Assembly: GCA_003611875.1 (NCBI GenBank)
Contig: RAYY01000045.1
Location: forward strand, 1 to 35,677
DNA from: a bacterium D16-56
GTDB lineage: Bacteria; Bacillota; Clostridia; Lachnospirales; Lachnospiraceae
Direction: 5' to 3'
DNA: 35,677 nucleotides
Shown: positions 7,614-24,970 of the stretch, in pieces
How the letters are laid out: each line of letters opens with the position of its first letter
Position numbering within the stretch: position 1 is the first letter of the stretch
Notes under the pieces: generated by a model
Told to the model about the DNA's origin: nothing
What the model saw: only the letters and a program-made list of their open reading frames with translations
The model's database searches: none
Program-made: the position numbers and the translations under genes

Positions 7614-7847
7614 GTGCGCCCAGCAAAGGGAAATTAACCTTACAGGTGCAAATCCTGTCTGCAAAGGTCTAGCCAACCAGCAGTAGTGAGTCTTGGGTGG
7701 GTGTCAGTAATGGCAGCTGCTAAGCGTAGACAACGAGCAAGTAGGGATGCAATGCGATTGAGTCTCGAAATGTTATAATCCAGAGGGCTGACGTTTTAAC
7801 TGGTACGGAAAGCAACATCGGGCAGTTCGCAAATGGCGAGAATTTGG
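7614..7847 (+). ncRNA. 5' fragment of a group II intron
   Basis: Starts with GTGCGCCC, fitting the GUGYG 5' end of group II introns, and carries the domain I sequence usual in clostridial introns (TCTTGGGTGGGTGTCAG, TAAGCGTAGACAACGAGC, CCAGAGGGCTGACG). No reverse transcriptase and no domains V/VI follow: sequence passes into a topB fragment at about 7848. Splicing is impossible. The end point is approximate. Confidence 0.7.
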
Positions 7848-8073
7848 CGGCGGTTATCCGGTGAGCTGGTGCGTGGGGCACCTTTTAGAACTGGCGCAGT
7901 CGGAGGCTTATGGGGAACAGTATGCCAGATGGCGTTACGATGATCTGCTGATCCTGCCGGAAACATGGAAATATGAGGCTCCAAAAGATAAGAAGAAACA
8001 GCTTGATTTCCTGTGCCGGCTGATGAAGGACAAACGGGTGGATTCCGTGGTATGCGCAGCAGATGTTGGATAG
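7848..8073 (+). pseudogene. topB: DNA topoisomerase III fragment
   Basis: Reads GGGYPVSWCVGHLLELAQ then YARWRYDDLLILPETW and KKKQLDFLCRLMKDKRVDSVV, the N-terminal Toprim region of the topoisomerase III carried by conjugative elements. It stops at CAADVG, where the family has the acidic Toprim motif CATDAGREGE, so the catalytic core and everything after are lost. The first 30 or so residues are also missing, replaced by the intron fragment. Confidence 0.8.
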
Positions 8074-11179: not shown

Positions 11180-12130
11180 ATGTATGCTATTGAAACAGAA
11201 AATATTATAAAGCAGTATAAAAATGGCGTACAGGCACTTTCGGGCTTATCCCTTTCGGTTAAAGCCGGGGAAATTTTTTCACTATTAGGGGAGAATGGAG
11301 CGGGGAAATCCACCTTAATCCGCATATTGACAATTTATATACGTTCTACTTCCGGCAAAGTAACTATGCTGGGAAGAAACATTTATACGGACGCTGCGTG
11401 GGTACGTTCACAGATCGCTTGTGTTGCACAGCAAACATCAATCGACACCCATTTGTCATTAGAAGAAAATATGCTGTTCCAAAGCCGCTTATATAAAATC
11501 CCGAAAGCAGAAGCCAAAAAGAGAACGGAAAAACTCATTACGGATTTTGGATTGGAACGGTATCGGAAATATCCTGTATCATCTTATTCCGGGGGCGTAA
11601 AACGCCGCCTTGATATTGCCCTTAACATGATGTCAAATTCTAAAATCCTCTTTTTGGACGAGCCAACTGTTGGCATGGATATTCAATCCCGTATTTCTAT
11701 GTGGGAAATGATGAAACAAATTTGTAGTGATTTTGAAACCACTATTTTTCTCACAACACACTATCTTGAAGAAGCAGATAGTTTAAGTAATAACGTCTGT
11801 ATTATGAAGGATGGAAAAGCTGTAAAGCAGGGGACACCAACTGAATTACGCTCTTTACTTCGGGAAAACACGATACGGCTACAATTCCATAATATTGAGG
11901 ACGCAAAAGAATACATGGAGATATTAAAGAACTTTTTCCAGCAAGAAAATATGATTGTGCAAAATTCGACAGTCATCATCCATTCACCTAATGCGCAATC
12001 AAATATGGAGTATATAATATCGTTTTTGGCAGAACGTCATATTCCCTTTCAAGGAATAGAAATTGCACAGCCAACTTTAGAAGATGTTTTTTTACGTCTG
12101 ACACAGAGCAGACAAGGGGAATGTATATGA
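11180..12130 (+). CDS. ABC transporter ATP-binding protein (drug/antibiotic export type)
   Basis: 316 aa, DrrA/CcmA-like. Walker A GENGAGKST at residues 37-45, Q-loop region IACVAQQTSIDTHLSLEEN, signature SYSGGVKRRLD, Walker B ILFLDEPTVGMD and switch histidine in FLTTHYLEEADSLS. The C-terminal 90 residues are the usual regulatory extension of this subfamily, ending in LEDVFLRLTQ. Pairs with the permease at 12127, with which it overlaps by ATGA. Substrate unknown; the AraC/GyrI neighbours suggest export of a toxic small molecule sensed by the regulator. Confidence 0.9.
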   Translation: MYAIETENIIKQYKNGVQALSGLSLSVKAGEIFSLLGENGAGKSTLIRILTIYIRSTSGKVTMLGRNIYTDAAWVRSQIACVAQQTSIDTHLSLEENMLFQSRLYKIPKAEAKKRTEKLITDFGLERYRKYPVSSYSGGVKRRLDIALNMMSNSKILFLDEPTVGMDIQSRISMWEMMKQICSDFETTIFLTTHYLEEADSLSNNVCIMKDGKAVKQGTPTELRSLLRENTIRLQFHNIEDAKEYMEILKNFFQQENMIVQNSTVIIHSPNAQSNMEYIISFLAERHIPFQGIEIAQPTLEDVFLRLTQSRQGECI

Positions 12131-12882
12131 GTGTATTCACAATTTTGTACCGAAATGTAAAATGGCGTTTTCATAACTCATTTACCATTGTAATTACAAT
12201 TTTACAGCCTATCTTGTGGCTTGTGCTTTACAGTGCTGTTGCTGGGCAGACTATGAAAAATACAGGAATAGAAAACTATACCGCATTTATTCTTCCCGGA
12301 TTAGTGGTTTTAGTTAGTTTTTCTACTTGCAGCAGCAGCGGAATTATGAATTATATGATGAAGTCGGACGGTAGCTTTTATAGGGTATTGATTGCACCTA
12401 TTAAACGAAGCTCTATTGTTTTAGGACAACTTCTTGAAGCGGTATTATGTACTTTCCTTGAAGTGGGAATAATGGGGTGTATTAGTCTGCTTTTTCATGT
12501 AAGGCTTGCCAGTGGTATAACAGGAATTTTTCTGATTTTGATACTGGTGTTTCTGACAGCATTTTTTATGGCGGGACTTGCTTATGGAATAAGTCTAATT
12601 CTGCCAAACGAGATAATATATGAAACAGTAATGAACGCGATTGTATTACCTGTATTTTTTCTTAGTACAGCATTATTTCCGGCAGACGGTATCAGCGGCA
12701 TATTAAAGATTGCAATTAACATCAATCCATTCACCCATATGATTAACGTATTGCGTGATCTGATACTTTATGGAACTGTCAACACAAATAGCACGGTATT
12801 TGTGTTCATGCTTTTTATACTTATGGGAAGTATCAGTTTTATTTGGGCTTTACATGGATTGAAAAAGGAATTGAGCCTATAG
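12127..12882 (+). CDS. ABC-2 type permease
   Basis: 251 aa with six hydrophobic segments, starting with a cytoplasmic RNVKWRFHNSF helix and a segment ILQPILWLVLYSAV. PGLVVLVSFSTCSSSGIMNY matches the ABC-2 export permease pattern. I chose ATG 12127 over 12121 because it gives the ATGA overlap with the ATPase gene and proper spacing from AAGGGGA. It forms the membrane half of the exporter with the preceding protein. Confidence 0.88.
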   Translation: MSVFTILYRNVKWRFHNSFTIVITILQPILWLVLYSAVAGQTMKNTGIENYTAFILPGLVVLVSFSTCSSSGIMNYMMKSDGSFYRVLIAPIKRSSIVLGQLLEAVLCTFLEVGIMGCISLLFHVRLASGITGIFLILILVFLTAFFMAGLAYGISLILPNEIIYETVMNAIVLPVFFLSTALFPADGISGILKIAININPFTHMINVLRDLILYGTVNTNSTVFVFMLFILMGSISFIWALHGLKKELSL

Positions 12883-12891
12883 ACGGATTTC

Positions 12892-12918
12892 TGACATATT
12901 TGGAATAAATATGTGTCA
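12892..12918 (+). terminator. Hairpin after the ABC operon
   Basis: TGACATATTT pairs with AAATATGTGTCA with a two-base bulge. There is no clear T-run, so its strength is uncertain. Confidence 0.45.
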
Positions 12919-13122
12919 GGGGTGAGGGTTTACGAAGACCGCTTTGAGTGGCTCCTAAACTTAAGCCCCGATGCGGGAGGGGGACTGGATGATGCCGGTT
13001 CCCCCGTTTATTTTAAGAAGATAACAGTCACGCCGGATGACGAGCGGGCGTGGTTCAAGAAGCACCCACAGTGGTCAAAATCCAACAGGTACGCGGAGCT
13101 GGAGGTGTGGATTTTCATCTAA
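12913..13122 (+). pseudogene. C-terminal fragment, possibly of a serine recombinase
   Basis: Reads VRVYEDRFEWLLNLSPDAGG and later ITVTPDDERAWFKKHPQWSK, ending ELEVWIFI. The VYEDRFEWLLNL strand resembles the C-terminal end of large serine recombinases of Clostridia. No catalytic or Recombinase domain is upstream. Could instead be another element protein; the family call is weak. Confidence 0.35.
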
Positions 13123-15195: not shown

Positions 15196-16392
15196 CTATG
15201 CTGCGATCAGCCTTTCCATTTCAGCCCTTGCGGAAGCGAATGTTGCGTGTGCGTAATAGTTCAGCGTCATGGTAATGTTGGAATGTCCCATGATATACTG
15301 TAACGCTTTCGGGTTCATGCCCGCATTGGCTAAGTTGGTGCAGAATGTATGGCGCAGGGTGTGGGGTGTCATTACTTTGGGTAAGGCTTCTTCATGGCAT
15401 TTGTTGTACTTTTTCGCAAGCCCCCGGAACATGGTAGCATAGTTCACATTCGTTTTCGGGCAGCCGTCCCGGTTGAGGAAAAGGAAATTGCTGTAACCGT
15501 CAACGGTGATCTGCTTCGTTCCTTTGCGGTTCTCCAACACGCGCCCCAACGCTTCATACACTTTTTCACTCATTGGAATTTGTCTGATACCGCTTTGCGT
15601 TTTGGGCTTCTCTATGTAGTAGCCTGTTTCCGCGCTCCGTAAAAGCTGGTGGTCTACATTGATTACCCGATTTTCAAAGTCAAGGTCGGTTTCAGTCAGC
15701 CCGCAGAGTTCGGAAATCCTAAGCCCCGTCCCCAGCAGTATGATAACCTCGTCACGGTATTTCTGATAGACGCTATCACTTTGCATAAAGGATAAAAGGC
15801 TTTCTTCCTGTTCTGCTGTGAGGGGTACTTTCGGCTCCGTGTCGTCCTCGATCACGGTGTTTAGCTGGAAGTCAAAGGGATTTTTCCTTATACAGTCGTC
15901 CTGTATCGCTGTGTAAAAGGCAGCTTTCAGAGAACGCTTATCATTGCTTATGGTCTTGTAGGATATTCCCTTTTCTTTCATGCGCAACGCCCATTCTTTC
16001 GCGTCGGACAGTTTTACACTATCAATGGGGCAGGAACCAAGTTTATCCGCTTCCAGCAGCTTCATCAGCCGCTTGCGCCCCTGTGTGGTGTTGTACCGAA
16101 CATTCCCCCGGTGGCGGTTCTGCTTTGCGTAAAGCTCGCAGACAGTCATTTTCTTTCCAATCGTGTCTATCCCGTCGTCAAGGTCTTTCTGTATCTCTTT
16201 TTCCTTTTCTCTAAGGGATATGTCGTCACGCTTCCCGGCAGGGGTCTTGTCCGTAGGCACTAACTTCCACGCATAGACAAATTGCACTTTACCAAAAGTA
16301 TCGGTATATTTGTAAGCATATCTCCCGTCTTTTCTCTGGCTCTCTCCCGAACGCAAAATGCGGTTTTTATTATCACGTCTTTTCTCCGACAT
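15196..16392 (-). CDS. int: Tn916/Tn1549-type tyrosine integrase
   Basis: 398 aa, the usual length. N-terminal arm-binding domain (residues about 1-75), core-binding domain (about 82-180) and catalytic domain with the R-H-R-H-Y set: Arg225 in GTGLRISELCGL, His344 and Arg347 in HTLRHTFCTN, His370 in MGHSN, Tyr379 in NYYAHATF. All catalytic residues are intact, so it may still be active. Next to it are xis and the 38-bp end sequence with AGAAGTTCTTATAT repeats. Carries out excision and integration with Xis at AT-rich targets. Confidence 0.95.
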   Translation of the reverse strand: MSEKRRDNKNRILRSGESQRKDGRYAYKYTDTFGKVQFVYAWKLVPTDKTPAGKRDDISLREKEKEIQKDLDDGIDTIGKKMTVCELYAKQNRHRGNVRYNTTQGRKRLMKLLEADKLGSCPIDSVKLSDAKEWALRMKEKGISYKTISNDKRSLKAAFYTAIQDDCIRKNPFDFQLNTVIEDDTEPKVPLTAEQEESLLSFMQSDSVYQKYRDEVIILLGTGLRISELCGLTETDLDFENRVINVDHQLLRSAETGYYIEKPKTQSGIRQIPMSEKVYEALGRVLENRKGTKQITVDGYSNFLFLNRDGCPKTNVNYATMFRGLAKKYNKCHEEALPKVMTPHTLRHTFCTNLANAGMNPKALQYIMGHSNITMTLNYYAHATFASARAEMERLIAA

Positions 16393-16480: not shown

Positions 16481-16684
16481 CTAAATTGCGTCCAGTGTGT
16501 CAATGATTTTTTCAAACTGTTTCCTCTTGATCTGAATACGGTTGCCGTTCAAGATTACCCAGCCCGCCGTAGGGTTTTCCTCTGCAAGTTTCCGCAGCTT
16601 GTTTTCCCCAATGCGGAAATATTTTGACGCTTCTTCAATGGTAAGCGTGTACTTTTCCCAAATAGGCACATCAGCATTGCTCAT
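16481..16684 (-). CDS. xis: Excisionase
   Basis: 67 aa, typical of Tn916 Xis. Reads [20 protein letters not shown] then [20 protein letters not shown] and [14 protein letters not shown]: a MerR-like winged HTH that bends DNA at the element ends and drives Int towards excision. A ribosome site (AAGGGGGATTTAT) precedes ATG. The gene lies 88 nt before int with a long hairpin between them. Confidence 0.92.
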
Positions 16685-17123
16685 TCTATAAATCCCCCTT
16701 TCAAAAATGGGTAAATGGTTAATGGTGAAAAAGGGGCTGTGATCGGACGGTTAATAGCGTAACCTCACGGGAGTTTCACCCCTGCATGGTTCTCATGCAG
16801 CCCTACCCATTGCCTGCGACGCTTTGAACGCTCGGACTGTGGCGGTAAGGGAGTATCATTATATATTCTGCGCTTTCGTCGCCCGCAAGCTGCTAAACTT
16901 GCTCCCCGGCTCGGTGTTGGTCGCTCGGCTGTCCCGGCAGGGAAAAGAAAACCCCGCCGGGATAGTGTCATGGCGCACCCGCCGTATGGCTCGGCGCAAA
17001 AGGGACGTATCCGATCTGCCCTATGCTGCGCCGCCGTTATCTTGCGCCGCTTTCTTTGTCAAGGTGCTGGAAAGGTTCTGCTGGGGGCAGCGGAAAGAGG
17101 GACGCTGCCTGTCCTAAATCAGC
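16685..17123. other. Non-coding gap upstream of xis
   Basis: GC-rich and with hairpins such as GCATG/CATGC near 16783-16798 and TCCCGGC/GCCGGGA (16937-16963). Frames on the plus strand (16824-17117 and 16970-17155) lack ribosome sites and read against the operon, so I treat them as chance. Probably the regulatory leader of xis. Confidence 0.5.
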
Positions 17124-17375
17124 TTAAACCTCGAATGAAAGGACAGCCCGCATAAGCCGTGACCGTAAACGGTCGCGTATGTCCTCGTCTATGCCCCAAT
17201 ATACATTTCCCCGCTCGTCGTAGAGCTTGCGCATAGACAGGGACGTTATGTAGCTTTCGTAGTGCTTGACGACAATCGCCATAGCTTCCGGGTCGCCCTT
17301 TGTTGCGGCTATGATTACCGGGTAGGGTAACAAGCCGCGTTCGGCATTTTCATTGTTACCAGTCTGTGCAGTCAT
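17124..17375 (-). CDS. HTH-domain protein of Tn916 type (orf8-like)
   Basis: 83 aa: LLPYPVIIAATKGDPEAMAI then VKHYESYITSLSMRKLYDE and DIRDRLRSRLMRAVLSFEV. This is the small HTH domain protein always found next to the sigma-like regulator in Tn916/Tn1549 elements. It overlaps the sigma gene by 20 nt, so the two are coupled. In Tn916 the equivalent pair controls excision and transfer transcription. Confidence 0.85.
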   Translation of the reverse strand: MTAQTGNNENAERGLLPYPVIIAATKGDPEAMAIVVKHYESYITSLSMRKLYDERGNVYWGIDEDIRDRLRSRLMRAVLSFEV

Positions 17376-17799
17376 AGGCGCGTTCCTCCAAATAGCGTTT
17401 TAGTAGCTCAAAAGAGCTGTTGCGGCGATACTTCACTGTTGTCCTCGGAATGTTGCAGAGCCTTGAAATCTCGGTTTCGCTCATATCGAAGAAATAATAC
17501 AGCAGGATAGTTTCGCGCTTTTCTTCCGGCAAGCTCCGCAGGGCTTCGGCAAGCAGCTTTGCGGTTATCTCTTTTCCCGCAATAATGAAAGACTGTTCAG
17601 CTTCATCATCTGCAAAATATCTGTCGTAGGTAACAAGCTGGCTTTCTTCCAGTGGTGACAGATCGGAGAATGTTACTTCCCTTGATTGCTGCCGCTTTGT
17701 GTCCCTGTGGGCGTTCATTGCTTCGCGCTTCAATGCCTGTTTGCAAAAGCCATTAAAAGCACAACGGATTTGCCATTGGGTACGGTTCGGTTCATTCAT
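17356..17799 (-). CDS. Sigma-70 family regulator of the element (orf7-like)
   Basis: 147 aa from an ATG with a strong GAAAGGAGGTGAGAAC site; the longer frame to 17934 is not needed. A short N-terminal region (QIRCAFNGFCKQALKREAMN) is followed by sigma region 4 (residues about 95-140): LRSLPEEKRETILLYYFFDM then SETEISRLCNIPRTTVKYRR, a clear HTH. It probably directs polymerase to element promoters. Downstream of the 36-aa gene and the second Pho promoter, and therefore a possible target of phosphate control. Confidence 0.9.
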   Translation of the reverse strand: MNEPNRTQWQIRCAFNGFCKQALKREAMNAHRDTKRQQSREVTFSDLSPLEESQLVTYDRYFADDEAEQSFIIAGKEITAKLLAEALRSLPEEKRETILLYYFFDMSETEISRLCNIPRTTVKYRRNSSFELLKRYLEERAYDCTDW

Positions 17800-17938
17800 G
17801 TTCTCACCTCCTTTCGCAGCCGCGAAAGCGGGTGATTTTTTCTGATGTCCCCTTTCATAAACCCTCAAAACCGCGCACCCCCGAATAGGCGGTGATTTTG
17901 CAAACTTTTTGAAAAAATTTTGCCGGGGGAACACAAAA

Positions 17939-17966
17939 CGCCCGTCTACAAAGTTGCAGACGGGCG
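17939..17966 (-). terminator. Terminator after the 36-aa gene
   Basis: CGCCCGTCT (17939-17947) pairs with AGACGGGCG (17958-17966). On the minus strand it is followed by TTTTGTGTT. It could reduce readthrough from the small gene into the sigma gene. Confidence 0.75.
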
Positions 17967-17987
17967 CAGAGGAATTGTAAGCAGTAT

Positions 17988-18098
17988 TCAGTTGATTAGA
18001 CAGTTCATATTCGTGGGTAGAATTTCCCCCGGCGGTGGACGGGCTTTTTTTGATATGTCAATGACCGTCGGATTTTGTCGATACGGTATGTGCTTCAT
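17988..18098 (-). CDS. Small 36-aa peptide gene of the element
   Basis: M-K-H-I-P-Y-R-Q-N-P-T-V-I-D-I then KKARPPPGEILPTNMNCLIN to TGA. It has an excellent site (AAAGGAGGTAGCCGCC then ATG), which makes it likely to be translated although it is tiny. Proline-rich and basic, with no membrane segment. It lies between the second Pho promoter (18299-18353) and the sigma gene, with its own terminator. I do not know a function. It could be a leader peptide that couples translation to readthrough of the downstream hairpin, as known for Tn916 regulation. Confidence 0.6.
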   Translation of the reverse strand: MKHIPYRQNPTVIDISKKARPPPGEILPTNMNCLIN

Positions 18099-18227
18099 GG
18101 CGGCTACCTCCTTTAGCCGCCGCTTTTAACAGTGAAACCGCGTCATTCCTTGAGAAGATAAAAAAGAAACGGCGGCTTTGATTTTTCAAAACCACCGATT
18201 ATGTTGATTCTTGAAAATGAACGCAAA

Positions 18228-18273
18228 AATCCTACCTGTCAGCGGTTTTTGTCTTTTCCCGCATTGGCAGGTA
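18228..18273 (-). terminator. Terminator or attenuator downstream of the second Pho promoter
   Basis: On the minus strand TACCTG pairs with CAGGTA and GCGG with CCGC, with a small internal bulge, followed by GGATTTTTG. It is about 20-65 nt after the predicted start of the Pho promoter, so it would give a transcript of roughly 68 nt or act as an attenuator. Confidence 0.55.
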
Positions 18274-18298
18274 TTTCCATTTCTTTTGTTTTATTTAG

Positions 18299-18353
18299 AT
18301 ATTATCAAGTCAACATCAAATCCAATATCTTGAAATTGTAAAATCCATGTAAA
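18299..18353 (-). promoter_or_regulatory. Second Pho-box promoter, pointing into the element
   Basis: Minus-strand repeats TTTACA (18353-18348), TTTACA (18342-18337), AAGATA (18331-18326), TTTGAT (18320-18315), each 11 nt apart, then 10 nt and TAATAT (18304-18299). Same spacing as the pstS promoter at 24916-24970, including the shared GATATTGGATTTGAT. It is downstream of phoR and reads away from it. Confidence 0.7.
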
Positions 18354-18355
18354 AC

Positions 18356-18382
18356 AAAAAAGCTGCCGTATGCAGCTTTTTT
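18356..18382. terminator. Terminator of the pst-pho operon
   Basis: AAAAAGCTGC and GCAGCTTTTTT around CGTAT. It lies 27 nt after the phoR stop and works in both directions. It also insulates phoR from the second Pho promoter. Confidence 0.85.
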
Positions 18383-18408
18383 GAAAAATGGTTATACAAT
18401 TTAATGTT

Positions 18409-20064
18409 TCATTTTGGAAATGTTACAATAACCGTCGTGCCTTTTCCGACATGACTTTTTACATCAACTTTAGCATTATGGATTTTAGCGGCGTGTTTCA
18501 CAATAGAAAGCCCAAGCCCGGTTCCCCCTACTGCCTTAGAATGGCTCTTATCAACACGATAGAAACGCTCAAAAATCCGCTCTTGATGTTCGGGTGCAAT
18601 TCCTATCCCCGTGTCCTCCACTGATAAAACTACCATGCCGTTTTCATTCTGTATGTTCACCATTACTTTTCCGTTTTCATGGTTATACTTAATCGCATTG
18701 TCACAAAGATTATAAATCACACTGTATAAAAGCTGTGGTATGCCGTTAAGGGGAGCCGGAACGCCGGAAAGCTCCAATGCAACACATACGGTATCTGCCT
18801 CTGGCTCTAAGCTCTGTACCGCCTTTTCTGCCAATGTGTATAGGTCGATATTTTCTCTCTGCATATCGTCCGCACCTTCGTCAAGGTGCGAAAGACTGAT
18901 AATGTCCTCCACAAGCCGTATCATTCGTCCGGCTTCATCATAAATCTTTCCGGCAAAGGGTATTTTATCATTCTCCTTTACCATATCGTTTTTCAAAAGC
19001 TCCGCATACCCGGAAATGGAGTGAAGCGGGGTTTTTAATTCATGGGACACATTAGCGGTAAATTCGCGCCGTATCTGTTCCGCTTTTTCTTTTTCTGTCA
19101 CATTGAAAAAGAAAAGCGCGGCTCCTTTCACAATGTTTTCAGAAGTGATCGGGTCAGCGTCAATTTGATAGCTTTCTCCATGCAGCCGGATAATGTTTTC
19201 GCCCCGTTCTCCGTGCAAGGCTTTCGTAAGGATTTCCTGCAATTCAAGATTACGGCATAAGGACAGCATATCAGAACCGATACAGTCTGTGCCAGCGTCC
19301 AACAGTTTTCTTGCCGCAGGGTTTATACTGATAATTTTCCCTTTTTGATTTAGGAGAATCATGCCCTCATTCATGCTGCCGATAATCGTATTTAATTCAT
19401 TCTCTTTTTGGAGAAGCTCGGCTTTCTGCCCCCGTAGCTGTCTTTGCTGGCTGTCAATACGCCGTAAAAAAGGGGAAAGCTCATCATAGCCCTCATTTGA
19501 CAACGGATTATCAAGATCAATTTCATTTAATGGCTTTACTATTTTTTTTGAAACTTGAATAGCTAAAACAATGGAAAGAATCAGCGCGATCACAAATATA
19601 ATGCAAATCGGCTGTGTCATACCTAAAAGGAGCGTCAAAATAGAATTTTGAGATATGGAAAGCCGTAATACAGTGCCATCATCAAGTTTCTGCGCGGAAT
19701 AAAACGAACGCTCCATCAAAGTAGCAGAATACCGTTTACTTTCACCATAGCCCGAAGAAAGGGCTTCCCGCACTTCTTCCCGCTCTAAATGATTTTCCAT
19801 TTCCGCAGTATCAGACGCACTATCAAAAATAACATTTCCCTCTGTATCAATCCATGATATACGATAATTTTTCACTTTCAAATCATGGAAATAATCAATG
19901 CCCTCATTTGTAACGCCCTGTGCGGCAAGGGTTGTCTGCATTTTTAGCTGTGTCTGTTCAACATTTGAAAAGTATTCATACAGAACACCCATGAACAGGA
20001 CAACAGACGCAAGAAAAACAGTCAATGCGACAAGGCAGATTGAACGAAAAATTCGTTTCGTCAT
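18409..20064 (-). CDS. phoR: Phosphate sensor histidine kinase PhoR
   Basis: 551 aa. Two membrane helices (about 9-30 and 150-172) enclose an extracellular domain; a HAMP-like segment and coiled coil (172-225), a PAS domain (about 226-320, IIGSMNEGMILLNQKGKIIS), HisKA with phosphoacceptor His341 in FTANVSHELKTPLHS, and HATPase_c with N box NLCDNAIKYNHENGK, G1 VEDTGIGIAP and G2 VGGTGLGLSIVKH. All boxes are intact. It overlaps phoP by ATGA. It senses phosphate sufficiency with PstSCAB-PhoU and phosphorylates PhoP. Confidence 0.93.
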   Translation of the reverse strand: MTKRIFRSICLVALTVFLASVVLFMGVLYEYFSNVEQTQLKMQTTLAAQGVTNEGIDYFHDLKVKNYRISWIDTEGNVIFDSASDTAEMENHLEREEVREALSSGYGESKRYSATLMERSFYSAQKLDDGTVLRLSISQNSILTLLLGMTQPICIIFVIALILSIVLAIQVSKKIVKPLNEIDLDNPLSNEGYDELSPFLRRIDSQQRQLRGQKAELLQKENELNTIIGSMNEGMILLNQKGKIISINPAARKLLDAGTDCIGSDMLSLCRNLELQEILTKALHGERGENIIRLHGESYQIDADPITSENIVKGAALFFFNVTEKEKAEQIRREFTANVSHELKTPLHSISGYAELLKNDMVKENDKIPFAGKIYDEAGRMIRLVEDIISLSHLDEGADDMQRENIDLYTLAEKAVQSLEPEADTVCVALELSGVPAPLNGIPQLLYSVIYNLCDNAIKYNHENGKVMVNIQNENGMVVLSVEDTGIGIAPEHQERIFERFYRVDKSHSKAVGGTGLGLSIVKHAAKIHNAKVDVKSHVGKGTTVIVTFPK

Positions 20065-20735
20065 ACTTCCCCCTCCATTCGATACCCAACTCCCCGTACC
20101 GTTTCAATATAGCTCCCACATTCGCCTAATTTTGTTCGGAGTGTTCCAATGTGAACATCTACGGTTCGGGTTTCTCCTATGTAGTCAATGCCCCATATCA
20201 TTTCAAGAAGCTGATCGCGTGTAAACACCCGTCCGGGGTTTTCCATAAAAGTATGGAGCAGCTTATGTTCTTTCAGTGTCAACTGAACCCGTTCGTTGTT
20301 TACAAGTACAATATATGTTTCCAAATTCAATTCTAAATTACCAATTTTTAGCTTTTTAGTTTCTTCTTTCGGACTTGTACGGCGCAATACCGCTTTCACA
20401 CGGGAAATCATTTCCATCATGCCAAACGGCTTTGCAAGGTAATCATCAGCTCCCAAATCAAGCCCGGTTACTTTGTCGTATTCGGTTCCTTTGGCTGTCG
20501 CCATAATAACAGGAATATCCTCTGTCGTCCCCTGCATACGCAGCTTTTTCAATATGGAAATGCCATCTTCGCCGGGAAGCATTATATCAAGCATAATAAG
20601 CTGGGGTTTTTCTGTCTGCAAAGCGTCAAAAAGGGTGTCCGCGCAGTCAAAACCTTTTGCTTCAAATCCGGCAGAATTTAATGTGTATATCATCAGATCA
20701 CGGATAGAGCTGTCGTCCTCAACACAATAAATCAT
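20061..20735 (-). CDS. phoP: Phosphate response regulator PhoP (PhoB-like)
   Basis: 224 aa from the ATG at 20735 behind GAAAGGAG; an earlier ATG at 20783 lacks a site. Receiver domain with acid pair E6-D7-D8, phosphoacceptor Asp50 in IMLDIMLPGEDG and Lys in DYLAKPFGMME; winged-helix OmpR-type DNA-binding domain (about 125-222) with RVQLTLKEHKLLHTFMENPG and DVHIGTLRTKLG. Expected to bind the two 11-nt-period Pho boxes at 18315-18353 and 24932-24970. Confidence 0.93.
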   Translation of the reverse strand: MIYCVEDDSSIRDLMIYTLNSAGFEAKGFDCADTLFDALQTEKPQLIMLDIMLPGEDGISILKKLRMQGTTEDIPVIMATAKGTEYDKVTGLDLGADDYLAKPFGMMEMISRVKAVLRRTSPKEETKKLKIGNLELNLETYIVLVNNERVQLTLKEHKLLHTFMENPGRVFTRDQLLEMIWGIDYIGETRTVDVHIGTLRTKLGECGSYIETVRGVGYRMEGEV

Positions 20736-20818
20736 GTAAATCTGCTCCTTTCTTTCCTGTGGCAATATTCCGAAATCAATCATACCATATTACCTATATT
20801 TCATCAATGGCGGTATGT

Positions 20819-21460
20819 TCACCCCTCTTTGTTCCCTGTGATTGAGAACAGAACCCATTTTGCAATATTGACCGCATGATCTCCGATACGTTCAAAATAT
20901 TTTGCAATCATTAACAGGTCTATGGCATACTCACCGTCTGTTTCGGGCTTGCTGAAAAGTTCAATCAGCATTTTCTTCACCTTATCGAAAAAGGAATCCA
21001 CCACATCATCATAATCTATCACGGCTTTCGCCATCTGCATATCCTTTTTCACAAAAGCGTCAATACTGTCTGTTACCATTTTAATGACAGCAACCGACAT
21101 ATCATGGATAACTTGTGTGTCGTCGGTGGCGTGGATATTGGCTAATGTGATAATTTCCGCTATGTCTGCGGATTGATCTCCGATTCTTGCCATATCTGTC
21201 ACCATTTTCAGCGCGGACGATACAACCCTCAAATCTTTTGCCACGGGCTGCTGCTGTAAGAGCAGCTTTAGACACATAGTTTCAATTTCGCGCTCCTTGT
21301 GGTCTATCTGAACAGAGAGATCGGGAACAGCCTTTGCAAGCGCGGGATTCCCCTCTGTCAGAGCTTTTGCGGACATAGCAATCGCATTTTCACAAAAAGC
21401 CCCCATTGTAATCAACTCTTTATTTAATAAATCTAACTGTTCATCAAATTTTAGGCGCAT
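20819..21460 (-). CDS. phoU: PhoU, negative regulator of Pho signalling
   Basis: 213 aa, two tandem PhoU three-helix domains (about 15-105 and 120-205). Metal-binding type motifs: VSSALKMVTDMARIGDQSAD and LMIAKYFERIGDHAVNIAKW. It couples the Pst transporter to PhoR so that high phosphate keeps the kinase off. The start overlaps the stop of pstB by one base (TAATG), a sign of coupled translation. Confidence 0.95.
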   Translation of the reverse strand: MRLKFDEQLDLLNKELITMGAFCENAIAMSAKALTEGNPALAKAVPDLSVQIDHKEREIETMCLKLLLQQQPVAKDLRVVSSALKMVTDMARIGDQSADIAEIITLANIHATDDTQVIHDMSVAVIKMVTDSIDAFVKKDMQMAKAVIDYDDVVDSFFDKVKKMLIELFSKPETDGEYAIDLLMIAKYFERIGDHAVNIAKWVLFSITGNKEG

Positions 21461-22209
21461 TATCCAAACCTCCCCGTAATATAATCCTCTGTCCGCTTGT
21501 CCTGCGGCATGGAGAATAATTTTTCTGTTTCTCCAAACTCCACCATTTCCCCAAGCAGGAAAAACGCTGTCCTGTCGGAAATTCGGAGTGCTTGCTGCAT
21601 ATTATGTGTCACAATGACAATGGTATAGTCCTTTTTTAATTCTGCGGCAAGTTCCTCTACCTTTGCCGTAGAAATAGGGTCAAGTGCGCTGGTCGGTTCG
21701 TCCATCAACAAAACTTCCGGCTCCACTGCCAAAGCGCGGGCAATGCAAAGACGCTGCTGTTGACCGCCCGACATACCAAGCGCAGATTTTTTCAGCCTGT
21801 CTTTTACCTCGTCCCAAATTGCCGCCCCTTTTAAGGAACGCTCTACAATTTCGTCCAGCGCAGCTTTAGAACGGATACCATGCGTCCTTGCTCCAAAGGC
21901 AACATTGTCATAAATGCTCATAGGGAACGGATTCGGTTTTTGAAATACCATTCCCACACGTTTACGCAGTAGGTTAATATCCATATTTCCATAAATATCT
22001 TCACCGTCTAAACGGATAGTCCCTTTGATGTGGCAGCCCTCCACCAAGTCATTCATTCGGTTCAATGTTTTTAATAATGTCGATTTACCGCAGCCCGACG
22101 GTCCGATCAGCGCGGTAATTTCGTGTTCCTTAAACGCCACATTTATTTTTTTCAAGGCTTGAAAGTTTCCGTAGAATAAATCCAAATCCTCAACCACGAT
22201 TTTATCCAT
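21460..22209 (-). CDS. pstB: Phosphate ABC transporter ATPase PstB
   Basis: 249 aa. Walker [11 protein letters not shown]-loop [20 protein letters not shown], signature [17 protein letters not shown], Walker [14 protein letters not shown] and switch His in [13 protein letters not shown]: diagnostic of PstB. It energises PstA/PstC. It overlaps pstA by 8 nt. Confidence 0.97.
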
Positions 22210-23068
22210 CTGTGTTTTTACCTCCTATCTTTTTTGCCACAAACCCAGAAAGTGCATTTATCAGAATGACAACAACCAATAATACAACCGCAGTTGCGTA
22301 AGTCTGCTTGATATACAGTCCCTCACCCGAAATAGAATACATATGGACGGATAAAGTTCTTGCCGACGAAAAAATACTTGTTGCTATTTCTGCAACGGTT
22401 CCGGAAGTAAAGATCAGTGCCGCCGATTCCCCGACGATACGCCCGATTCCAAGAATAACGCCGGACAAGATACCCGGAACGGCGCAGGGCAGGACAATAG
22501 AGAATACGGTTCGTAGCTTTCCGGCTCCAAGCCCGAAGCTGCCCTCGCGGTAACTGTCGGGAACGCTTCGCAAGGCTTCTTCTGTTGTCCGCATAATAAG
22601 CGGCAAAATCATAATGCTTAATGTCAAAGCCCCGGACAGCAAAGACAACCCCAGCCCAAGATATTTCACGAAGAAAAGGGAACCGAACAGCCCATAAACG
22701 ATTGACGGAATCCCGGACAATGTTTCAGCGGTAATACCTACGATATGAACCAGCTTATTTCCCCGTCTTGCGTATTCTGTCAGATAAATTGCAGCACCAA
22801 TTCCTACGGGAACCGCAAACAGCAGGGAAAGCAGCATAATGAACAGTGTATTGATAAGTGCTGGAAGCAGGGACACATTTTCTGTTGTATATTTGCTGTC
22901 AAATAAATCCAGCGTTAAATTTGGAATCCCTTTTATCAATATGTATGCAATAATAAAAATAAGCGCAAGCATTGTAATCAATGCTGCAAGGCATACAGAA
23001 AGAAAGAGAACAAAAGATTTAGGGTCGCGTCTGTATGCGCACCATTTCCGTTTCAATTTTCCAACCAT
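22202..23068 (-). CDS. pstA: Phosphate ABC transporter permease PstA
   Basis: 288 aa, six membrane helices, with the conserved EAA-loop region [20 protein letters not shown] and [15 protein letters not shown] good AAAAGGAGGGTG site precedes ATG. Forms the membrane channel with PstC; the genes abut. Confidence 0.95.
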
Positions 23069-23917
23069 TTATTTCACCCTCCTTTTGAACAGGGAGAGGG
23101 ACAGATTGATAATGAGAATGAAAACAAACAGGACAACAGCCGTACCAATTAACGCTTCACGGTGTAAATCCGTAGAATATCCCATTTCCAATACAATGTT
23201 TGTGGTCAGTGTCCGAACGCCGGAAAGCATACTGTCCGGGATAACCGCTTGATTTCCGGCAACCATCATAACCGCCATTGTTTCACCGACTGCCCGCCCA
23301 ATCCCTAATACAACCCCTGCAAAAATACCGCTCTTTGCTGCGGGAAGAACCGTAAAAAATACACTTCTTTCATGGGAAGCTCCAAGAGCAAGCCCTCCCT
23401 CATAGTAACTTTCCGGGACAGCCCGGATTGAAGTTTCCGAAACGCTGATAATGGTAGGTAAAATCATCAGCCCCAGCAGGACAGAAGCAGTAAGTACACT
23501 CATACCGCGCCCGCCAAAGGCTTCCCGAATAAAAGGCACTAAGACTACCAATCCAAAAAAACCGTACACAACCGACGGAATCCCCGCCATTAGATTAACA
23601 GCAGCTTTCAAAGGCGCATAGATACTTCTCGGAGCAAATCTTGCCATGAATACCGCTGTCAATATTCCAATCGGTACGCCAATAATCAATGCTCCAGCAG
23701 TTACATAGAAAGAGCCGACGATCATAGGGAGAATCCCATAGAGATTATTTGCGGGTTTCCAGCTTGTACCCAGCAAAAATTTGAAAACGCCTATTTCTTT
23801 TATTGCAGGGATACCGCTTGCAAACAGGAATATGCAGATTAGAATTACCGCTGCTATGGAAACAAGGGCTGTCAAGAAAAAAAGCAGTTTCATCACTTTT
23901 TCTTTTATATTCTTCAT
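23069..23917 (-). CDS. pstC: Phosphate ABC transporter permease PstC
   Basis: 282 aa; I chose ATG 23917 because AAGGAG is 7 nt before it, whereas the ATG at 23923 touches that site. Six helices, the GIPSVVYGFFGLVVLVPFI motif and cytoplasmic loop ETSIRAVPESYYEGGLALGA. Partner of PstA; 57 nt after pstS. Confidence 0.95.
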   Translation of the reverse strand: MKNIKEKVMKLLFFLTALVSIAAVILICIFLFASGIPAIKEIGVFKFLLGTSWKPANNLYGILPMIVGSFYVTAGALIIGVPIGILTAVFMARFAPRSIYAPLKAAVNLMAGIPSVVYGFFGLVVLVPFIREAFGGRGMSVLTASVLLGLMILPTIISVSETSIRAVPESYYEGGLALGASHERSVFFTVLPAAKSGIFAGVVLGIGRAVGETMAVMMVAGNQAVIPDSMLSGVRTLTTNIVLEMGYSTDLHREALIGTAVVLFVFILIINLSLSLFKRRVK

Positions 23918-23974
23918 AATCATGCTCCTTATTGAAAAGGGGCGGCGGCTTTCTTACCGCAGCCCCTTAAAATC

Positions 23975-24868
23975 CTACTGTGATATTTCACTCCAACGAA
24001 CCGCATTACCCATAAAAATATCTTTTACCTGTTCACTTGTAAGGTTATTTATGGGACAGTCATTATTAACAATCACTGTAATACCGTCCATTGCAATTAC
24101 GGTAGCGGTCAGTCCTTTTTCCATTTCGGAATCTTTCAGCTCACGGGAAGCCATGCCTATATCGCAGGTTCCGTCTATTGTGTCAGACATACCAGTAGAA
24201 GAATCACTTTGCTGTATCTCAATCGTAACGCCCGGATTTCTCTCAAGATAGGCTTCTTTGAGCTTTTCCATAACCGGGGTGACAGAGCTGGAACCCGCTA
24301 CAATAATTTTGCCCGAATCCATTTCCCCGCTGTAACTTCCCGCGTCAGATACAGAAATATATCCATTTTCTTCAATCACCGCTTGACCGTCCGCACTCAT
24401 AATGAAGTCGATAAAATCCTGCGCCGTGTCGCTCAAACCGTCTTTTGTTGCAATGTTAAAGGGACGTGCAATCTCATAAGTACCGTTTTTAATATTTTCA
24501 ATCGTTGCTTCGCAGCCGTCGATCTGAATCGCTTTTACAGTATCATTCATGGAGCCAAGAGAAATATATCCGATAGAGTATAAATCCCCGGCAACCGTTG
24601 TCATCATAACAGACGTAGAATTTGTAACGGCGGCGGTGTCTGTTGTATAGTCAATTTTTTCTCCCGCTTCATTTTTCTGCTCGATTCCAAACAGCTCTAT
24701 GAACGCGCCGCGTGTCCCCGAACCATCTTCGCGGGTAAGTACATTGATCTCTCTTGCCGTGTCAAATTTGGCTGAATCGCCCTCGTTCTTATTACTGCAC
24801 CCCGTTAATGCAGACAGCATTAGAACACTCATAAGGGCAAATGCCAAGTATTTTTTTGATGTTTTCAT
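23975..24868 (-). CDS. pstS: Phosphate-binding lipoprotein PstS
   Basis: 297 aa. Lipoprotein signal peptide with lipobox LTGC (Cys24), so anchored outside the membrane. Two PBP-like lobes; phosphate-contacting loops are likely REDGSGTRGAFIE (first lobe) and VAGSSSVTPVMEKL with SDSSTGMSDTIDGTCDIGMA (second lobe). First gene of the operon, with an AAAGGAGA site and a Pho-box promoter upstream. Captures phosphate and passes it to PstCA. Confidence 0.95.
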   Translation of the reverse strand: MKTSKKYLAFALMSVLMLSALTGCSNKNEGDSAKFDTAREINVLTREDGSGTRGAFIELFGIEQKNEAGEKIDYTTDTAAVTNSTSVMMTTVAGDLYSIGYISLGSMNDTVKAIQIDGCEATIENIKNGTYEIARPFNIATKDGLSDTAQDFIDFIMSADGQAVIEENGYISVSDAGSYSGEMDSGKIIVAGSSSVTPVMEKLKEAYLERNPGVTIEIQQSDSSTGMSDTIDGTCDIGMASRELKDSEMEKGLTATVIAMDGITVIVNNDCPINNLTSEQVKDIFMGNAVRWSEISQ

Positions 24869-24915: not shown

Positions 24916-24970
24916 ATCATACAGGACAAAAATCAAATCCAATATCGCGGCATTGTAAAATTGATGTAAA
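24916..24970 (-). promoter_or_regulatory. Pho-box promoter of the pst-pho operon
   Basis: Minus-strand repeats TTTACA (24970-24965), TTTACA (24959-24954), GCGATA (24948-24943), TTTGAT (24937-24932) at 11-nt period, then 10 nt and TATGAT (24921-24916). This is the arrangement known for PhoP-activated promoters in Firmicutes. Leader about 40 nt. Confidence 0.8.

Follow-up and report, generated by a model that had tools for sequence, protein, structure and literature searches.

In Tn916, regulation of the element is coupled to its cargo through tet(M)/orf12 attenuation and the orf9/orf7 genes, and transcription arriving from the cargo side has been proposed, in passages of two papers, to de-repress orf7 and excision (PMC7288454, PMC9632896). 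Quite separately, promoters of the PhoP regulon that drive pst operons are built from Pho boxes, and S. aureus nptA, which encodes the cotransporter NptA, is PhoPR-dependent according to a passage of PMC13170248. Here we report a locus in which these two kinds of system adjoin. The window (the whole stretch of 35,677 nucleotides analysed) holds a Tn916-like element that carries a pst-phoPR cassette as cargo, with a candidate Pho-box promoter at the edge of the cassette. No paper on a Pho promoter within a Tn916-like element was apparent, by title or abstract opening, among the literature matches listed.

The locus resembles each of its closest counterparts in part. As in Tn916, Tn916-type int and xis are present, the cargo adjoins the regulators and stem-loops lie in the path between them; Tn916, however, relies on attenuation relieved by tetracycline, whereas here the signal would come from a phosphate-starvation promoter and the coupling is putative. 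Box sequences, period and -10 spacing are like those of pst-operon promoters, but the candidate does not stand ahead of a phosphate gene. Its nearest positional equivalents are Lachnospiraceae promoters found downstream of phoR and ahead of Na+/Pi cotransporter genes (L048, L093, L102, L188, L191 and L195), which share its place, strand and 11-nt period. Four of them (L048, L093, L102 and L188) also share a TA..AT -10 at 10 nt, while in L191 and L195 the fourth box departs from the pattern; at our locus, in contrast, the cotransporter gene is absent and element backbone follows.

The candidate promoter and the element that carries it

The mobile element encodes, all on the minus strand, a Tn916-type integrase (15196..16392), a Tn916-type excisionase (16481..16684), an HTH_16 protein (17124..17375) and a sigma-70 region 4 protein (17356..17805). 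Matches to PF00589, PF02920 and PF09035 are above cut-off, as expected of a Tn916-like integrative element, and MobC-like and relaxase genes lie on its far side. A scan for viral-contig patterns gave no match, and a plasmid search returned one match, confined to the element backbone. An Rfam pemK RNA lies between the HTH and xis genes (16765-16862, minus strand) and occurs also in L009, L026, L060, L155, L156, L172 and L173. A group II intron domain match (RF02005) was seen at 7649-7867 on the plus strand, on the integrase side away from the cargo.

Every cargo gene reads leftwards: pstS-pstC-pstA-pstB-phoU (20819..24868, minus strand; pstC is assigned by position and open reading frame only), phoP (20061..20783, minus strand), whose response regulator is the likely activator of both promoters, and phoR, encoding the histidine kinase (18409..20064, minus strand). 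The next-best match to the element's PhoP in the host genome is 44% identical. Within the host draft genome (97.5% complete), the element's PstB (21463-22200, minus strand) is the sole one above the TIGR00972 cut-off, so that in this host phosphate uptake may be bound up with the mobile element.

Directly beyond the phoR terminator hairpin (18355..18383, minus strand), whose T-run points towards box 1, lies the candidate promoter (18299..18353, minus strand). Its four boxes (18353-18315) repeat with an 11-nt period as TTTACA-n5-TTTACA-n5-AAGATA-n5-TTTGAT and are followed after 10 nt by the -10 hexamer TAATAT (18304-18299), from whose position transcription is expected to start at about 18292. 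The element's pstS promoter (24916..24970, minus strand; box 1 starting at 24970), which served as the reference copy of boxes and -10, reads TTTACA-n5-TTTACA-n5-GCGATA-n5-TTTGAT, then 10 nt and TATGAT; across 42 bp, the identity between the two promoters is 83%. The same 10-nt distance from box 4 to the -10 is found in pst and cotransporter promoters, with TAGAAT in L048, TAGCAT in L093, TACGAT in L102 and TAGTAT in L188.

These similarities were scored with a matrix built from the promoters of nine relatives, each located solely via PhoR protein searches. Across the 71,278 positions of the window, the pstS promoter ranked first (58.35) and the candidate second (48.70), the third-ranked position reaching 0.22, and the top score in 30 dinucleotide-shuffled windows was 18.61. 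An earlier matrix of 12 promoters, which included two found only through DNA similarity to the candidate (L093 and L102), gave 58.14, 50.93 and 0.62, respectively. By matrix score, the direct repeats of the candidate match the Pho boxes of related genomes. The preliminary description had placed four 11-nt-period repeats and a -10 with pstS-like spacing beyond the phoR terminator, reading leftwards, and in these respects it was borne out. As far as sequence can tell, the candidate is well supported as a structurally intact PhoP-type promoter aimed at the element's regulators.

Regions downstream of phoR in relatives

We compared 77 stretches that follow phoR (L008-L054 and L182-L211), of which 76 were scored, some shorter than 1500 nt and L210 being too short to include. 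Fifteen of the 76 rows, the window among them, are copies of this element, and 14 of these are distinct, since L183 and L015 do not differ over 4,233 nt. Each carries all 22 of the 22 specified box positions, a result that is circular because the four-box consensus was taken from the candidate and the pstS promoter. Of the remaining 61 rows, which include one element copy with the region deleted (L036) and may include repeats of one genome, four score at least 19 (L048, L188, L191 and L195), and in all four a Na+/Pi cotransporter gene follows on the same strand. The same order of phoR, Pho box and cotransporter gene is found in L093 and L102, the two loci retrieved by DNA similarity to the candidate. 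PF02690 was detected for L048, L093, L102 and L188; the assignments in L191 and L195 are by tblastn. Overall, a cotransporter gene lies within 1.5 kb after phoR in 6 of the 76 rows, four with a box and two without (L049 and L050). Two further rows have weaker boxes, one (L204; 15/22) between phoR and pstS and the other (L202; 17/22, partial) with no recognised gene within the 616 bases available.

Like the cotransporter promoters, the candidate thus lies beyond phoR and on its strand, but the cotransporter gene is not next to it; in the window and the element copies, no cotransporter match was found in up to 1500 nt after phoR. It is an orphan, accordingly, only by its proposed origin. Neither of the host's own two cotransporter genes has such a Pho box, and a wider PF02690 survey of 60 genomes, with several subfamilies mixed, placed none of 34 cotransporter rows (two same-place pairs in the host's own genome included) directly after phoR. 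The phoR-box-cotransporter layout is therefore one of several.

Promoter sequence alone, as compared here, does not discriminate between a cotransporter and a pstS origin. In a 42-bp comparison, the candidate agrees with pstS promoters at up to 36 positions and with cotransporter promoters at up to 35. When 62 nt are compared, L093 ranks first (48), but this locus was selected by DNA similarity; the unselected cotransporter promoters L048, L191 and L195 match at 41, 36 and 42 positions, against 41-46 for pstS promoters when one misplaced row is left out.

The cassette, with phoR at 96-100% identity, was also seen in another setting (L011, L014, L019, L022-L025, L027-L031, L033, L047 and L051). 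These loci diverge right past the phoR stop codon, and the second Pho box is absent from them.

From the promoter to the sigma gene

Leftwards of the candidate, the captured cassette appears to end and the Tn916-like backbone to begin within a junction zone (18273..18298, minus strand), after which there is no cotransporter coding sequence. Similarity to cassette-free elements starts at 18272 (L064/L077) or 18260 (L070/L075), which places the junction between about 18299 and 18273. In the cassette-free element loci examined, other coding sequence stands upstream of the shared backbone, and the cargo side of L075-L078 shows only distant ABC-transporter and two-component similarity to the element's Pst/Pho proteins (at most 35%).

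The path from the promoter to the sigma gene crosses three terminator-like hairpins, all on the minus strand: a backbone hairpin with an A-rich loop and a T-run (18228..18273), a second backbone terminator (18170..18197), after which sits a leader-like open reading frame of 36 amino acids (17988..18098, minus strand), and a third terminator between that frame and the sigma gene (17938..17967). A hairpin with a T-run about 20 nt past the predicted start had been part of the preliminary description, and the first of the three is that structure; the predicted fold of the 68 nt from 18292 to 18225 has an energy of -17.1 kcal/mol (z -3.84 against shuffles). With the thresholds applied, no sigma-70-like site scoring at least 9/12 was found on the same strand between 18292 and the sigma gene.

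Comparison with other elements assigns the first hairpin to the backbone. We folded 21 distinct hairpin sequences (six from this element and 15 from others) singly; a MAFFT alignment of 16 hairpins misplaced the stems. In all 21 the apical loop holds an A-rich stretch, and the stems vary; since the hairpin search pattern itself specified the A-rich stretch and the second terminator, finding these features in the sequences is not independent evidence. Up to 400 nt upstream of the 15 other distinct hairpins there is no Pho box, the best matrix score being -6.8 as against 48.7 in the window and 44.5 in L026. Because the hairpin occurs elsewhere with no Pho box upstream, we regard it as backbone rather than as a Pho-specific small RNA gene. 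In some related elements (L060, L155, L157 and L176) the second terminator is present but the A-rich hairpin is missing.

The region also bears a likeness to Rfam SQ2397 (RF03532), in which an A-rich-loop hairpin precedes a second hairpin with a T-run. Its score of 39.4 bits (E 2.8e-5) lies below the curated cut-off of 100, and the stretch matched here differs in including the captured promoter; the model match extends through the second terminator. Four of 17 further loci likewise scored below the cut-off (L071 56.2, L065 53.1, L156 44.0 and L026 40.7). A passage of the Rfam 14 paper (PMC7779021) gives SQ2397 as a cis-regulator of an HTH transcription factor, citing a C. difficile RNA study; a term search of the main text of that study (PMC3649979) did not return the name SQ2397.

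Conservation of the path was followed by DNA alignment in 16 distinct copies of the element, namely the window, 14 named loci (L015 being G329) and L092 of G327. Nine copies have the path (the window, L008, L012, L015, L016, L018, L021, L026 and L040), contig ends cut it in two (L010 and L020), and it is broken in five. In L009 an inserted segment of about 1.26 kb, bounded by terminal inverted repeats (about 11770-13037), separates promoter and backbone hairpin, in L013 the sigma gene is truncated, L017 and L036 have lost the regulators, and in L092 the boxes are replaced after the first TTTACA by DNA in which no Rfam family was found at gathering level. No damage to boxes or -10 is seen in 14 distinct copies, a state that a kept function would explain as well; divergence among copies is too low to discriminate, with a chance of 0.28 of seeing no change at 30 positions in L026.

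Origin and possible roles of the promoter

Based on these observations, we suggest that the candidate is probably the orphaned promoter of a lost phosphate-uptake gene, captured with the pst-phoPR cassette and insulated by terminators. Directly established are the sequence, its spacing, the synteny in relatives, the lack of a transporter gene and the assignment of the hairpins to the backbone. The promoter would once have served a gene directly after phoR, most likely that of a Na+/Pi cotransporter, before a Tn916-like mobile element acquired the pst-phoU-phoPR block as cargo; capture would have ended directly past the promoter, and the promoter would therefore have been taken up without its gene. 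At low phosphate, PhoP~P would activate both the pstS promoter and the candidate. Transcripts starting near 18292, some 20 nt ahead of the backbone hairpins at 18228-18273 and 18170-18197, would mostly stop at those hairpins as short by-products, and some leakage into the sigma/HTH regulators may occur. The identity of the lost gene, binding by PhoP, induction by starvation, the efficiency of termination and the absence of a selected role are what we infer in this scheme. A search for the donor chromosome did not find one.

The origin of the site could also be sought in a pstS promoter, either as a duplicate of the element's own copy or as the promoter left behind by a pstS gene formerly situated after phoR. 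Such a derivation would account for the 83% identity to the element's pstS promoter over 42 bp and finds a parallel in L204, where a Pho box does lie between phoR and pstS; pstS promoters, moreover, resemble the candidate no less than the unselected cotransporter promoters do. Outside the boxes, nevertheless, the likeness to the pstS promoter of the element itself falls away (42/62 nt), and all four strong post-phoR boxes outside the element precede cotransporter genes, and we consider a pstS origin quite improbable. The product might instead be a dedicated small RNA under phosphate control, about 68 nt long and terminating at the hairpin 18228-18273, as the preliminary description had allowed. 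The predicted start and hairpin would yield such a transcript, its fold is stronger than that of shuffled sequences, and the SQ2397 family that the region resembles takes its reference from a study of regulatory RNAs in C. difficile. Yet the hairpin exists in 15 distinct other versions lacking an upstream Pho box, and the SQ2397 model falls well short of its cut-off and continues through the second terminator. We have largely rejected a dedicated small RNA on the ground that the hairpin belongs to the backbone, and hold it to be very unlikely; from the earlier account, a second Pho-type promoter directed towards the regulators is what sequence and comparison uphold, but not the role that was proposed for it.

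Because cargo-side transcription in Tn916 is thought to affect excision, we retain phosphate-coupled mobility as a rival reading. The promoter would then control the element, with starvation-induced transcription running beyond the phoR terminator and through the leader into the sigma/HTH genes and raising excision, comparable to the action of tetracycline in Tn916. An intact promoter directed at the regulators is consistent with this, as is a path preserved in 9 of 16 distinct copies, and the absence, at the thresholds applied, of a sigma-70-like site scoring at least 9/12 between 18292 and the sigma gene leaves room for it. Three terminator-like hairpins stand in between, however, related leaders are found in elements without a Pho box upstream, and insertion, deletions or replacement have broken the path in L009, L013, L017, L036 and L092, so we judge functional control to be rather unlikely. 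That a captured PhoP-dependent promoter reads into the leader and the sigma/HTH genes such that phosphate starvation, and not an antibiotic, raises both excision and transfer is the boldest reading, for which we see only a slim chance.

An orphaned promoter would still be of consequence for how elements are wired. Through cargo capture, the control genes of a mobile element can come to lie immediately behind a nutrient-responsive promoter, and even as a leftover such a promoter is raw material for new wiring. The arrangement also suits a clean test of whether the element's terminator-like hairpins shield its regulators from cargo promoters.

The leader itself has features of its own. Beside the start codon of the 36-amino-acid frame lies a hairpin (18095-18125) with the ribosome-binding site in its loop, and this start-codon hairpin recurs, with differing stems, in many Tn916-like loci (L060, L063, L065, L070, L071, L173 and others), where it accompanies short variable open reading frames, often with SKK. 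Frame and hairpin together look like a conserved leader. In the predicted leader fold, a segment at about 18023-18034, within the 36-amino-acid frame, can pair with 17922-17931 and enclose the third terminator (minus strand), a pairing that may represent attenuation.
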